From: Treponema sp.
GTDB taxonomy: Bacteria > Spirochaetota > Spirochaetia > Treponematales > Breznakiellaceae
Assembly (NCBI GenBank): GCA_031266095.1
Contig: JAISBR010000120.1
Location: 1 to 26,787, forward strand
DNA length: 26,787 bases
Direction of reading: 5' to 3'
This document shows, piece by piece, positions 12,150-26,787 of the stretch. The position numbers and the translations under genes are program-made. Position 1 is the first letter of the stretch, and each line of letters begins with the position of its first letter. The notes beneath the pieces were generated by a model. It searched no databases, was not told the DNA's origin, and saw only the letters and a list, made by a program, of their open reading frames with translations.

Positions 12150-12233
12150 GCCCGGATGGTGGAATTGGTAGACACGCTGGTTTCAGGTACCAGTGCCTTC
12201 ACCGGCATGGAAGTTCGAGTCTTCTTCCGGGCA
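12150..12233 (+). tRNA. tRNA-Leu (anticodon CAG)
   Basis: An 84-nt class II tRNA. Acceptor arms GCCCGGA and TCCGGGC pair perfectly, with discriminator A at 12233. The anticodon stem CTGGT/ACCAG encloses the loop TTCAGGT (anticodon CAG). A long variable arm (TGCC...GGCA) and T-loop TTCGAGT are present. CCA is not encoded. Confidence 0.95.
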
Positions 12234-15989: not shown

Positions 15990-16403
15990 TTACAAGGTTT
16001 TCAGATCATGGAGCGAGTCCATAGGGAGGAGCGCACCCATGGTGGTGTCTACCTGATCGGGACCTTCTCCTCCAAAACGGATCGGTGCGTCGGGCTTCAT
16101 GAACTCACTAAGCACCTGGCGGCAAGCACCGCAGGGACCTACCGGCGAGACAGAATCAGGGGTCGAAATTGCCAGGGCGGTAAAAAGACGCCGGCCCTGG
16201 GCAACCGCGTGGAATACGGCGTTCCGCTCGGCGCAGATGGTGAGGCCGTAGGAACGGTTCTCCACGTTACAGCCTGAAAAAACGCTTCCATCTTCACAGA
16301 GCAGCGCCGCGCCGACTCTGAATTTTGAATAGGGCGCATAGGCGGCTTTCGCAGCCTTCCGAGCTTCCGCAAACAAGGCGTCCATTTGTTCCTTACTAGC
16401 CAT
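15990..16403 (-). CDS. cdd: Cytidine deaminase
   Basis: A 137-residue tetrameric-type cytidine deaminase converting (deoxy)cytidine to (deoxy)uridine for pyrimidine salvage. Substrate motif GCNVEN (44-49), catalytic TICAERNA with zinc ligand C57 and proton-shuttling E59, and GPCGACRQVLSEF with zinc ligands C91 and C94. The ATG has GGGGG about six bases before it. TATAAT at 16421-16426 (minus) gives a leader of about 11 nt. It is divergent from the beta-propeller gene, 45 bp away. Confidence 0.95.
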   Translation of the reverse strand: MASKEQMDALFAEARKAAKAAYAPYSKFRVGAALLCEDGSVFSGCNVENRSYGLTICAERNAVFHAVAQGRRLFTALAISTPDSVSPVGPCGACRQVLSEFMKPDAPIRFGGEGPDQVDTTMGALLPMDSLHDLKTL

Positions 16404-16448
16404 ACAAGCCCCCTGTCTTTATTATAGTGTAATAACGTGGAGGAATGC

Positions 16449-17618
16449 ATGGCGAAAGGGAAGAAAAAGATCTGGTTGATTGTCATCATTTTCTGTTTCA
16501 TAATCTACTTTTTCACCGCAGCCCGGCCTATTCCTCTCGAAACAACTCTCACGCCCCGGTGGGTGAGTTCTCTGGAGTCCGATTATCCGCTGCTTATCGG
16601 CGACGGAGCCCCAAAATCGGAGGGGACAACCCAGGTCCTGGAAACCGTGGGAGTACCAGTCGATGGAATGGAAAACCAGGGGACGGGCGTGGGCTTAAGC
16701 TCGCTGCTCCCCTTTACTTTGGGTGAGCGTTTCGGTTATGTGGATACAGACGGGCGTTTTTCAATTAACCAGATCAAAAAAGAGGAAATATATCTTTCCG
16801 AAAATCTCTGGTCCGAATATGAGGCGGAACCTGAGCAAATTGAAATCCGGAACAATCTCAATAAAACGGTGTTTGCCATTAATACCCCCGATGGTTATCC
16901 TTGTTTTCTGGACGGTCGAATCTTCATCGTGGGAAGTGAACAGAATGCCCTTTCCGAGCTTGACAGTTCGGGTAATGTCCTCTGGACATATGAATTTCCC
17001 GCCCCCCTTACCTGCATTGACGCGGCTTCGGGGCTAGTCCTGACAGGTTCCATTGACGGTGTGGTAGAGGTGCTGGACAACGCCGGAAAGAGAGTGTTCT
17101 TTTTTGAGCCGGGCGGCTCCCGTTACGCGGTGATTCCGGGCTGCGCCATTTCCCGGGACGGTTCGCGTTTGGCGGTCATTTCCGGACTTGACGATCAGCG
17201 TTTCCTCTTACTGGAACGTTTCGGCGGTGAGAATGTGGAGTACAAGGTGATCTACCACGATTTCCTGGAGGATGGCTTCAGGCGGCCGGTACATATCACT
17301 TTTATTGATCAGGACCGGTGGATTGTCTTTGAGCGAGAGGAGGGTATCGGAGTGTATGAGATAAGTTCCCGACAGGGAACGAAGGTACCCTTGGAAGGTG
17401 AAATAACCGCCATCGATCAAACAGGGGGGGACGGACTTTTCTTTCTTATCACTTCCCTGCCGGCGGGGCGTAAGGAACTGGTGGGACTGAGGCTCCCCGG
17501 CAGGATCGTTATGCGGGCGCCTTTCAAAAGCGGCGGTGCCTTTCTGGACAGAATCGGTTCCCGGCTTTTTATCGGCGGAGGTTCCACCCTGGCTGCCTTT
17601 GAATTGGAGAAAAAATAA
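16449..17618 (+). CDS. Membrane-anchored beta-propeller (WD40/PQQ-like) protein
   Basis: A 389-residue protein with a basic start (MAKGKKK) and one uncleaved-looking membrane segment (about residues 8-26), so the bulk lies in the periplasm. From about residue 110 on there are repeated strands of the type GNVLWTYEFPAPLTCID, GLVLTGSIDGVVEVLD and AISRDGSRLAVISG, the pattern of WD40/PQQ-type propeller blades. Such domains bind partners rather than catalyse. The ATG follows GGAGG; an in-frame GTG lies four codons upstream. Only 3 bp separate it from the M23-like gene, so the two are surely co-transcribed. Confidence 0.75.
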   Translation: MAKGKKKIWLIVIIFCFIIYFFTAARPIPLETTLTPRWVSSLESDYPLLIGDGAPKSEGTTQVLETVGVPVDGMENQGTGVGLSSLLPFTLGERFGYVDTDGRFSINQIKKEEIYLSENLWSEYEAEPEQIEIRNNLNKTVFAINTPDGYPCFLDGRIFIVGSEQNALSELDSSGNVLWTYEFPAPLTCIDAASGLVLTGSIDGVVEVLDNAGKRVFFFEPGGSRYAVIPGCAISRDGSRLAVISGLDDQRFLLLERFGGENVEYKVIYHDFLEDGFRRPVHITFIDQDRWIVFEREEGIGVYEISSRQGTKVPLEGEITAIDQTGGDGLFFLITSLPAGRKELVGLRLPGRIVMRAPFKSGGAFLDRIGSRLFIGGGSTLAAFELEKK

Positions 17619-23343: not shown

Positions 23344-24113
23344 TGACCAAAAACATAAAACTGCTTATCGCCTATGACGGCTCCGGTTTTGCGGGATGGC
23401 AGAGGCAGGGCGCTTCCGGGGACGGCGCGGATCAGGAACGGACCATTCAGGGAGTTATTGAGCAGGCCCTGGAGAAGATGCACAAAGAACCGGTGAGCCT
23501 TACCGGATCGGGCCGTACCGACGCGGGGGTACACGCCGCGGGGCAGATCGCCAATTTTTACACCAATATACACCGCATTAATCCCGCGCGTTTTGCGCCT
23601 GCCTTGAACGGCCTGCTTCCCCAGGATGTGCGGATCCTTGCAGCCGCTGAAACCCGTTCCGATTTTCACGCCCGCTTTGACGCGAGTATGCGGACCTACC
23701 GTTATCATTTTATCACCGGCCGTTACGCGCTTCCCCACGAGAGCCGTTACAGCCTGTACCTCCGGCGGCATCTTCATATAGCACTCCTCAACGCCTATGG
23801 CCGCCTGCTTTTGGGGGAACGGGACTGTTCGATCTTTGCCGGAGCCGGGGACTCAAGCAAATCCCGGAGCAGGTATATTTCCCGCGCCTGTTTTTTTATC
23901 GAGGGGAACCGGCTGATCTTCGAGATCAGCGCCAACGCCTTTTTATGGAAGATGGTACGTTCAGTGACCGGTACCTTCCTTCACTATGAACAGCGGAATA
24001 CGCCTCCGGAGAAACTGCGGGATATCATCGCCTCAGGTGACCGGAGCCTTGCCGGGCCCACCCTGCCGCCCCAGGGGCTTTTCCTCTGGAAGATCGATTA
24101 TTACAAGGAGTAA
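23343..24113 (+). CDS. truA: tRNA pseudouridine synthase A
   Basis: A 256-residue TruA that isomerises uridines 38-40 of tRNA anticodon stems. Catalytic Asp is D60 in GSGRTDAGVHAAGQ; the opening IKLLIAYDGSGFAGWQRQ, the middle RTYRYHFITG and NAFLWKMVRSVTGTF are all standard. The ATG at 23343 gives the usual N-terminus but has no Shine-Dalgarno. An in-frame ATG at 23319, inside the repeat element and preceded by GAGG, would add eight residues (MHEVQQTP). Both starts are possible; I keep the inner one for homology. Confidence 0.93.
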   Translation: MTKNIKLLIAYDGSGFAGWQRQGASGDGADQERTIQGVIEQALEKMHKEPVSLTGSGRTDAGVHAAGQIANFYTNIHRINPARFAPALNGLLPQDVRILAAAETRSDFHARFDASMRTYRYHFITGRYALPHESRYSLYLRRHLHIALLNAYGRLLLGERDCSIFAGAGDSSKSRSRYISRACFFIEGNRLIFEISANAFLWKMVRSVTGTFLHYEQRNTPPEKLRDIIASGDRSLAGPTLPPQGLFLWKIDYYKE

Positions 24114-24122
24114 ATTGCCGGC

Positions 24123-25127
24123 ATGATCGATCCGGACCTGATTCGCCGTCTCATTGACGCCTCCCGGCGGGAACATGCCTGTACCCTGGAGATCAGCTAT
24201 AATGAGCCTATGGCGGCCCATACTACCTTCAAGGCAGGCGGACACGCGGATTGCTACGTGAAGCCGCTGGGAGACGGATTCCCCGGTTTTGCGGCGGGCC
24301 TGTTCCGGGCTGCCGGGGATGCCGGGGTGCCGGTTTTTATACTCGGAGGCGGCGCTAATATCGTCGTTTCGGACAGAGGAATCCGGGGAATCGTGCTGGA
24401 TACCTCAGGATGGACCGGGGAAACAGGGGAAGCGGAGGCCGCCGCTGTGGGGGCCGGGGACGGTATTGTTATGAGTTTCCGGGCCGGCCTCAGTATTGAT
24501 ACGGCGGCGGAACTGGCCGCCCGGGCCGGGCTTTCAGGACTTGAGTTCCTCGCGGGCATGCCCGGCAGTGTAGGCGGCGCCGTATGGATGAACGCCCGCT
24601 GTTATGAGCGGGAAATCGCCGACGTACTGATAGAAACCGGGATAGTAGATTTCTCTGAAGCCGGGGGGGAAGGCGGCGTTTCGCGGATACTCCGCGTTCC
24701 GGCGGACCGGGCCGCTTTCGGCTACAAGCGCAGCCCGTTCCAGAACCGGTCCTGTCTTATCCTCTCGGCCGCTTTTACCCTGCAACCCGGATCTGAACGG
24801 GAAATCAGGGACGAAATGGAAACGCGCCGCCGGGACCGTGAAGCCAAAGGCCATTACCGCTATCCTTCGGCGGGTTCGGTTTTCAAGAACAACCGGGCCT
24901 TCGGTAAGCCTACCGGTAAAATCATTGACGAACTGGGCTTACGGGGCTTGAAAATAGGCGGCGCCCAAGTCGCTCCCTTTCACGCCAACATCATCATCAA
25001 CACCGGCGGGGCCACCGCAGCGGATATCCGCGCCCTTACCGACGAAGTCGCCGGCCGTGTTATGGCCGCTCTGGGGCTTGTCCTGGAGCCGGAAATCCTC
25101 TTCGTTGGGGACTGGGAAGTGAGCTAA
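24123..25127 (+). CDS. murB: UDP-N-acetylenolpyruvoylglucosamine reductase
   Basis: A 334-residue FAD enzyme reducing UDP-GlcNAc enolpyruvate to UDP-MurNAc for peptidoglycan. FAD-binding: GGGANIVVSD (75-84) and GMPGSVGGAVWMNA (145-158). Catalytic S252 is in YPSAGSVFKN, and Glu in LEPEI near the end protonates the substrate. It begins 9 bp after the truA stop. After LEPEILFVGD the protein ends WEVS, whose codons and stop form the first half of a 23-bp tandem unit, so the tail may be repeat-derived. Confidence 0.95.
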   Translation: MIDPDLIRRLIDASRREHACTLEISYNEPMAAHTTFKAGGHADCYVKPLGDGFPGFAAGLFRAAGDAGVPVFILGGGANIVVSDRGIRGIVLDTSGWTGETGEAEAAAVGAGDGIVMSFRAGLSIDTAAELAARAGLSGLEFLAGMPGSVGGAVWMNARCYEREIADVLIETGIVDFSEAGGEGGVSRILRVPADRAAFGYKRSPFQNRSCLILSAAFTLQPGSEREIRDEMETRRRDREAKGHYRYPSAGSVFKNNRAFGKPTGKIIDELGLRGLKIGGAQVAPFHANIIINTGGATAADIRALTDEVAGRVMAALGLVLEPEILFVGDWEVS

Positions 25128-25872
25128 GCTAGCAGAGGGAAGTGAGCCGGCCCGGCTGAGGGAAGTGAGCTAAGCTAGCAGAGGGAGATGAGCCAACCTA
25201 GCAGAGGGAAGTGAGCTAAGCTAGCAGAGGGAGATGAGCTAAGCTAGCAGAGGGAGGTGAGCTAAGCTAGCAGAGGGAAGTGAGCTAAGCTAGCAGAGGG
25301 AGATGAGCCAGCCTGGCAGAGGGAGGTGAGCTAAGCCGGCAGAGGGAGATGAGCTAGCCTGGCAGAGGGAGGCGAGCAAGGCTAGCTGAGGGGGGCTCAG
25401 CTAGCCTTGCTGAATGGGGCTTCGCTAGCCTAGCTAAGGGAGGCTTCGCTAGCCTGGAATAGGGGTCGATTGCCGCCTGGAATAGGGATCGGTTGCCGCC
25501 TGGAATAGGGATCGGTTGCCTGCTGGAATAGGGGTCGGTTGCTTACCGGCATAGGGGTCGGTTGCCGCCTGGAATAGGGATCGGTTGCTTACTGGAATAG
25601 GGGTCGATTGCCGCCTGGAATAGGGATCGGTTGCCTGCTGGAATAGGGATCGGTTGCCTGCTGGAATAGGGGTCGGTTGCTTGCTGGAATAGGGGTCGGT
25701 TGCTTGCTGGAATAGGGGTCGGTTGCCTGCTGGAATAGGGGTCGGTTGCTTACCGGAATAGTGATCGGTTGCCGGCTGGAATAGGGATCGGTTGCTTGCT
25801 GGAATAGGGGTCGGTTGCTTGCTGGAATGGGGGTCGGTTGCCAGCCGGAATAGGGGTCGGTTGCCGGCAGAG
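25115..25872. repeat. Two-type 23-bp tandem array, about 33 units
   Basis: The period is exactly 23 bp over almost the whole 758 bp, with no spacers. Units 1-12 (25115-25390) are type A with core GAGCTAAGCTAGCAGAGG. Units 16-32 (25463-25853) are type B with core GGTTGCTTGCTGGAATAG. Units 13-15 (25391-25462) are intermediate and 23-25 bp long. The last unit (25854-25872) begins as type B and ends GGCAGAG like type A. Units 1, 3, 5 and 8 are identical, as are 18, 23 and 24, and 16 and 22. Type A carries stops in the forward frames. It lies between convergent murB and citF and fills the gap, apart from 36 GC-rich bases after it. Confidence 0.95.
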
Positions 25873-25908
25873 GGGCCGCCCGCGCGGAGCGTCCGCCGCT
25901 GCCGGGGC

Positions 25909-26787
25909 TCAGGTGACCTGATAGATCAGATCGATGACGCTGCCGTCCCGGGAGGTTACGATCCCCACCACCCGGCCGGTATGCTCGATAGGCTCAGGCC
26001 GTCCAACCATGGTTTCGACAATCTTCCGCAGTTCCCCGATGGGGCGCACCGGAATACCGGCCGCGGCAAATTGTTCCCGCAGGTCCTCACGGGCGGGATT
26101 CACCGCCACCCCCTGTTCGGTTACCAGCACGTCCACGGTCTTGCCGGGGGTCACGAGGCAGCCCACCCGGTCCACGATACAGGGGATCCGTCCCCGGGTA
26201 AGGGGGCAGACCACAATCGACACCGACGCGCCGTAGGCCGTATCCTGGTGGCCGCCCACGGCCCCCCGGATGATCCCGTCGGAACCGGTAAGCACGTTGA
26301 CGTTAAAATCCACATCCGCCTCCAGTGCGGAAAGGACCACCACGTCGAGCTGGTTTACCGCGGCGCCGTGCCCGTAGGGGCTGGCGTAGTATTCCGCGGA
26401 GATCTGGTGGTGAAAGCGGTTGTTCTTGAGGGAATCCGCCGCCTTAAGATCAAAGCCCTGGACATCCAGCAGTTTTTTGATGAGCCCTTCCTCGTGCAGT
26501 TCCACAATGGAGCCCGTGATGCCCCCCAGGGCAAAACTCGCGGTAATGCCCCGGGCGATCATCTTGTCCCGCAAAAACCGGGTTACCGCCAGGGACGCCC
26601 CGCCGGTTCCGGTCTGGAAGGAGAAGCCGTCCACGAGCCGCCCCGAAGCCTCAATCACCTCCGCCGCGGATTCCGCCATCACGAGCTCTTTGGGGTTGGT
26701 GGTAAACCGGGTCGCCCCGGACATGATCCCCGCGGGGTCTCCGATAGCGTCAACCTTAACGATATAATCCACGTCGCTTTCCGGTAT
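25909..26787 (-). CDS. citF: Citrate lyase alpha subunit (citrate:ACP transferase), C-terminal part
   Basis: The frame is open to the window's edge, leaving 292 residues of about 510. Family features are IPESDVDYIVKVDAIGDP at the edge, SFQTGTGGASLAVTRF, SFALGGITGSIVELHEEG, NVLTGSDGIIRGAVGGHQD and VTEQGVAVNPAREDL. This CoA-transferase-type subunit swaps acetyl for citryl on the CitD acyl carrier, the first step of splitting citrate to acetate and oxaloacetate. The other citrate-lyase genes would lie upstream (beyond the window). Its stop is 36 bp from the tandem array, converging on murB. Confidence 0.92.
   Translation of the reverse strand: MPESDVDYIVKVDAIGDPAGIMSGATRFTTNPKELVMAESAAEVIEASGRLVDGFSFQTGTGGASLAVTRFLRDKMIARGITASFALGGITGSIVELHEEGLIKKLLDVQGFDLKAADSLKNNRFHHQISAEYYASPYGHGAAVNQLDVVVLSALEADVDFNVNVLTGSDGIIRGAVGGHQDTAYGASVSIVVCPLTRGRIPCIVDRVGCLVTPGKTVDVLVTEQGVAVNPAREDLREQFAAAGIPVRPIGELRKIVETMVGRPEPIEHTGRVVGIVTSRDGSVIDLIYQVT

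Follow-up and report, generated by a model that had tools for sequence, protein, structure and literature searches.

Bacterial minisatellites, also called VNTRs, are tandem arrays of head-to-tail units of about 10 to 100 bp with near-identical neighbours; the usual view of tandem arrays is that their period is set by chance slippage. Palindromic intergenic repeats of bacteria form another class, the REP/BIME elements, which are linked with the RAYT transposase. Template switching is reported (PMC8794818) to give rise to RNA hairpins, to maintain them and to invert their loops, loop inversions with compensation being very rare there. The rut site of Rho-dependent termination is described (PMC6407284) as C-rich, G-poor, unstructured RNA with spaced C residues. 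Among the papers listed in searches of the openly licensed part of PubMed Central, none deals, as judged by titles and abstract beginnings, with treponeme arrays of the kind analysed here or with a preference for periods of 23 and 21.

The array studied here lies in a contig of Treponema sp., and the window is the whole stretch analysed (26,787 nucleotides). Like a minisatellite, the array consists of head-to-tail units in the usual size range with near-identical neighbours, near units being the more alike in one of its two blocks (B). It differs in that two unlike unit types stand at one period, in that the core of the first type is palindromic and carries compensated changes, and in that other arrays of relatives have its period too. 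We take it to be, most likely, a minisatellite specific to one lineage; it is of wider interest because arrays of other sequence in some relatives have the same period, with a preference for 23 and 21. The features are as follows.

24123..25127, plus strand: murB (UDP-N-acetylmuramate dehydrogenase); TIGR00179, 196.8 bits against a cut-off of 144.5
25114..25389, plus strand: A block, 12 units of 23 bp, consensus GGGAGGTGAGCTAAGCTAGCAGA; TRF and unit layout
within 25114..25389: palindromic A core GCTA-AGC-TAGC; core pairs in 45 of 48 cells, some of them from identical unit copies
25375..25411, no strand assigned: perfect inverted repeat at the A changeover, 16-bp arms and 5-base loop
25390..25458, plus strand: three intermediate units of 24, 23 and 22 bp, A-like; unit layout
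25459..25872, plus strand: B block, 18 units of 23 bp, consensus ATAGGGGTCGGTTGCCTGCTGGA, the last unit ending A-like
25114..25872, minus strand: rut-like RNA on the citF strand (C-rich, G-poor, a C every 11-13 nt), of which only the B part is weakly structured
25873..25908, no strand assigned: 36-bp spacer from array to citF, without repeats; sequence
25909..26772, minus strand: downstream end of citF (citrate lyase subunit alpha); TIGR01584, 423 bits, profile positions 204-490 of 492

The genes murB and citF face each other head-on with the array between them; the window edge truncates citF, whose score for that reason does not reach the whole-protein cut-off. Two 23-bp arrays are reported by TRF, one of 12.1 copies at 25114-25392 and one of 17.9 copies at 25454-25865, and at 25418-25464 the local period is 24; the unit boundaries were set by laying the sequence out by eye, unit after unit, to 25872. 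The layout gives 33 units in all (25114-25872), which bears out the preliminary description of about 33 head-to-tail 23-bp units with a dozen of type A first and some 17 of type B last. That description also had the array filling the murB-citF gap; it does lie there, but it starts inside murB and stops short of citF at the spacer. The last 14 bases of murB are the start of the first A unit, which supplies the stop codon of the gene, GAAGTGAGCTAA being its last codons (Glu-Val-Ser-stop). CRISPR was rejected, as it had been before, since the units abut and no unique spacers separate them. A coding repeat on the plus strand was rejected as well: the frames are cut by stops, and the longest open run covers 20% of A and 24% of B. 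A minus-strand frame through the B block is open; 23 is not a multiple of 3, so we read this frame as composition and the array as non-coding.

The two unit types are not detectably alike. Their consensus sequences agree at 10 of 23 positions at the best rotation, compared with a mean of 10.6 for shuffled units (p 0.86), and again at 10 of 23 on the opposite strand (shuffles 9.1, p 0.31). The agreement at about half of the positions that was described earlier is chance level, and B as a rotated or reverse form of A was rejected on both strands. Because the likeness is at shuffle level, descent of B from A is unproven, as is the view that B arose and expanded inside an A array; only the intermediates and a weak match at the end point that way. 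The three intermediates are A-like (p 0.0007, 0.004 and 0.013) and not significantly B-like (p 0.96, 0.46 and 0.12), so that the gradation between the types lies on the A side. At the far end, the 12 bases GCCGGCAGAGGG at 25863-25874, the end of the last B unit, match 25335-25346 in the A block exactly. This is the best local match between A and B, at p ~0.05 in 60 column permutations, and its GGGG stands 19, not 23, bases past the preceding GGGG; the B-A hybrid of the preliminary description comes down to this match. Within B, adjacent units resemble each other more than remote ones do (permutation p 0.008), and the A units show this less clearly (p 0.09), which is what local duplication would give. 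An assembly artefact, in which two collapsed arrays were joined or the copy number is wrong, is a rival explanation. By their titles the relatives are metagenome bins, and arrays stand in or at the ends of several of their contigs, but the units here differ from one another and the changeover is graded through A-like intermediates, and we consider an artefact very unlikely.

The changeover holds the longest perfect inverted repeat of the window (25375-25411; loops up to 12 were allowed, and the next best has 12 bp). In it the cores of the last A unit and of the unit after that are paired, and the sequence beyond resumes its forward sense, an arrangement that one template switch during replication would leave as a scar. 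The RNA fold of 25367-25458 beats 200 of 200 shuffles (z -3.40). In the A core the pairs are kept across the 12 units far better than when the partners are slid by 1-3 columns (0-22 of 48 cells, slides of -2 to +3), although the 48 cells are not independent because some units are identical copies; compensated variants are GCCG/CGGC and GCCA/TGGC. The A unit folds with z -1.4 and -2.2 on the two strands, and the whole A block, folded as DNA, does no better than its shuffles (z +0.23). No hairpin was found in the B unit (fold z +1.4 and +1.5 on the two strands), and shuffles of the B block form more structure than the block itself when folded as DNA (z +4.87); template switching therefore cannot explain B itself. 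A known structured RNA family was rejected: at the Rfam gathering score the array has no match, and the sole match in the window is a tRNA (12150-12233). Compensated palindromic stems outside any matched RNA family would offer a test bed for template switching as a source of covariation, and covariation of that origin would mimic selection on RNA structure.

The array was compared with the same locus in relatives. The window resembles Treponema bins from termite guts, the habitat being our reading of the kind of the bins, which are named Treponema sp. With the MurB of the three nearest named relatives (L001, L003 and L009) its own shares 76-77% identity; in these relatives murB ends Asp-Trp-Gly-stop with no array behind it. 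The nearest MurB (P0001, 96%) ends GDWGCD where that of the window ends GDWEVS, and the next four end GDWG (among the best 120 of 2979), so the border varies even between close relatives. Orthologues of citF occur in G003 (86%) and G006 (85%), apparently, from their lengths, on contigs other than those carrying murB, and no array was seen by eye in the 421 bases from either citF end. Absence at both genes makes the array specific to the lineage of the window among the genomes compared, and within the same comparison the murB-citF neighbourhood is probably specific to it too. A sequence search with the array against 39 genomes of the genus gave nothing at E<=0.01; two of the 39 match at E<=0.1 (best 0.074), and five of seven relatives searched match at E<=1. 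The array has no match in plasmids, phages or E. coli genomes, and the exact unit patterns have none in viral contigs. The preliminary description had held that the same array at many unrelated loci would remove the local interest; the 39 genomes without a match at E<=0.01 show no such spread.

What does recur is the period. TRF arrays with at least 3 copies and a period of at least 9 were counted in a sample of 60 contigs (579,098 bp) from G006, the genome of L009. There are 24, nine of period 23 and seven of period 21 (16 of 24 together), and the other eight have periods of 9, 15, 16, 18, 24, 42 (two) and 81. G026 (400,000 bp) has 22 arrays, 16 of period 23 and two each of 21, 24 and 69, which puts 18 of 22 at 23 or 21, and G033 (258,447 bp) has six, three of period 21 and none of 23. 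These three genomes are not random picks, since G006 was sampled because L009 carried such arrays and the other two because a linker pattern matched there. For the nearest relatives, G001 and G003, and for the murB loci the threshold was raised to 4 copies and 80 bp. G001 has no array in 232,975 bp at this cut and two short ones (periods 9 and 21) at a looser cut; G003 has two (periods 18 and 21) in 218,319 bp and none of period 23. The 66 other murB loci hold six arrays in 876,136 bp, with periods of 9, 21 (three times), 66 and 78, L057 being counted in both sets. We read the 16 period-23 arrays of G026 as belonging to about three sequence families and the nine of G006 to two or three, so that the period counts within a genome are not independent, and the period-21 arrays may be partly coding.

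One locus of G006 (L173) carries two 21-bp arrays, 16183-16467 and 16487-16684, 19 bases apart, whose consensus sequences agree at 10 of 21 positions, which is chance level (p 0.76). To judge from these sequences it is a second case like the A/B pair of the window. The suggestion that period rather than sequence is conserved was therefore upheld in part: periods 23 and 21 dominate the G006 and G026 samples and the L173 pair agrees, but period 23 is absent from those of G001, G003 and G033. Step length seems, from the arrays compared, to be shared more than sequence in some relatives. Bacteria with many unlike arrays at two step lengths would lend themselves to testing what fixes the length of a unit.

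Dedicated machinery of the genus, or a physical fixed-ruler constraint, might make arrays in steps of 23 (or 21) bp from almost any starting sequence, leaving the sequence free and the step not; one period would then be common to unrelated arrays at many loci, and even to unlike neighbours such as the A/B pair and L173. We regard this as unlikely. A protein-binding array, one of the functions proposed earlier, would need sites 23 bp apart, as in a nucleoid, partition or regulator array. The period does stay constant through the change of unit and recurs in relatives, where the linker YARGSCT is common to some arrays, but A and B share no detectable sequence, the linker is exact in the window at the changeover only, and no candidate protein is known. 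This makes a protein array quite improbable.

With moderate confidence we favour a non-coding minisatellite, grown behind murB from its 3' end in a single termite-gut Treponema lineage, as an instance of a habit of some members of the genus to form arrays whose unit length (23 or 21) is steadier than their sequence, through slippage and template switching, and with a possible role as a Rho barrier. The neutral minisatellite of the preliminary description comes into this as the main reading. Units would multiply by replication slippage or by unequal exchange in register, and multiplication in register would keep the period. Palindromic cores would let the polymerase switch template and rewrite part of a unit at one stroke, leaving the scar at the changeover, and the rewritten unit would then expand as type B. 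RNA reading through from citF would meet about 760 bases that are C-rich and G-poor, on which Rho may load; the array would then be a one-sided barrier keeping citF transcription off murB, whether selected for that or not. Against the minisatellite stand the recurrence of 23 and 21, which slippage alone does not explain, the lack of detectable likeness between A and B together with the ordinary DNA fold of the whole A block, and the samples of G001, G003 and G033, which are without period 23.

The evidence for a Rho barrier is confined to one strand. A rut-like stretch was scored as 78 nt with C/G above 1 and C every 11-13 nt. On the minus strand, which is that of the citF RNA, all 681 windows of 78 nt in the array have C/G above 1 with spaced C and 71% have C/G above 2, compared with 23% and 3.4% of all minus-strand windows, whereas none of the 681 qualifies on the plus strand. 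The halves of the array rank as the two longest C-rich runs on either strand of the whole window. Of five 120-nt stretches in B, four lie among the least structured 1.3% of 445 minus-strand stretches (range from 0.2) and the fifth lies at 5.4%; two A stretches are ordinarily structured (26 and 36 percentile of the 445). Rho itself is encoded within the window. What the array shares with a rut site is the C-rich, G-poor composition of one strand, with spaced C for more than 78 nt; unlike a rut site it is built of tandem repeats. Such RNA, weakly structured in B, may act as a Rho-dependent barrier. An intrinsic terminator, a GC-rich hairpin with a T run, was rejected, because the five terminator-like sites in 24000-26787 all lie outside 25114-25908. 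The earlier idea of a terminator trap between convergent genes is accordingly narrowed: it is plausible for one strand, as a candidate Rho site, and has no hairpin terminator.

A stronger form would make the array a selected Rho-dependent terminator for citF. Selection would keep only C-rich, open RNA on one strand, and the unit sequence might then change freely, in keeping with a skew that A and B share when they share no sequence. The uniform minus-strand signal, the openness of most of B and a gap free of terminator-like hairpins all fit. Against this, 7% of random 23-mers from the window have an equal skew on either of their strands, and any skew is drawn out by repetition; A, moreover, has ordinary structure, and the palindromic arrays of relatives show little skew. 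The flanking genes in relatives are co-directional, not convergent, at all seven loci with an ORF on both sides (L009, taken past the frame through its second array, L028, L031, L110, L121, L124 and L173), as judged from simple ORF calls that missed citF in the window itself. We find a selected terminator unlikely. The locus itself lends itself to testing whether a repeat between head-on genes can form a Rho barrier for one strand.

Many units of the relatives consist of the 7-base linker YARGSCT and a 6-4-6 hairpin. Tandem hairpin arrays of this kind stand in G006 at L009 (14116-14255 and 14392-14535) and in L228, L229 and L230; their stems differ between and within arrays, with compensation, and in L228 (contig C137) three successive units have three different stems. 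Among 208 distinct 30-base stretches with two linkers 23 apart, taken from all loci available for comparison, G-T being counted as a pair, all six pairs form in 41, compared with 0-14 when the partners are slid by 1-3 and with 0 of 101 stretches for a reversed-linker control; in 123 of the 208 no more than three pairs form, and many of the stretches are therefore chance linker pairs. The perfect stems are of seven kinds, two of which carry the loop in both orientations. A threefold linker pattern occurs in four of the 39 genomes (19 in G006, two each in G026 and G033, one in G003; reversed control 0). The window array agrees with the arrays of G006 and G026 in its period; palindromic units with compensated stems it may share in A, where the core keeps its pairs but the block as a whole folds no better than shuffles. 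It differs in the stem length of A (a 4-3-4 core), in the lack of a hairpin in B and in having no dispersed copies found. An exact linker stands in it at the changeover alone (CAAGGCT at 25377, with the reverse complement about 25401-25403), not in each unit, and membership of the linker family was rejected. We found no name for the hairpin arrays of G006 and G026.

The array could also be what remains of the interior of a dispersed mobile element, of the sort present in G026 and G006, after decay of its ends. In G026, 23-bp hairpin units stand beside a common flank motif at six of seven places, and the G006 arrays sit in an interspersed repeat, but for the window array no related DNA appeared at E<=0.01 in the 39 genomes, its flanks are murB itself and the 36-bp spacer, and neither terminal repeats nor a target duplication were seen by eye. 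A decayed element is, on this evidence, quite unlikely. Spread by RAYT found no support in G006, where a Y1 transposase has no match, though five of seven relatives have matches. The relatives do carry intergenic palindromic repeats, as in REP/BIME, but the repeats here are direct, in tandem and of fixed step, and G006 is without the transposase match. G001 gave eleven weak Y1 transposase-like matches of at most 27 bits.

Several repeats of the relatives were noted in passing. In G006, about 36 units of 23 bp stand at L110 8116-8937, with short blocks (CTC, AGG, GGG) swapping at fixed places, and a palindromic interspersed repeat surrounds the 23-bp arrays at L009 13950-14750, with 61 matches in G006, 13 in G003 and three each in G001 and G004. 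In G026, a dispersed repeat of about 235 bp (L246 2370-2604) contains 23-bp hairpin units TCACTATAG-N-CTATAGTGA and ends CTGCCTT / AAGGCAG; it has at least 37 matches in that genome, and similar repeats occur in L245, L249, L251, L252 and L255. The last 32-53 bases of a query from L246, at 2586-2640 beyond the G026 element, match 12 of the 13 other genomes with matches, up to 19 times in G021, and by these matches the segment is a further short dispersed repeat.
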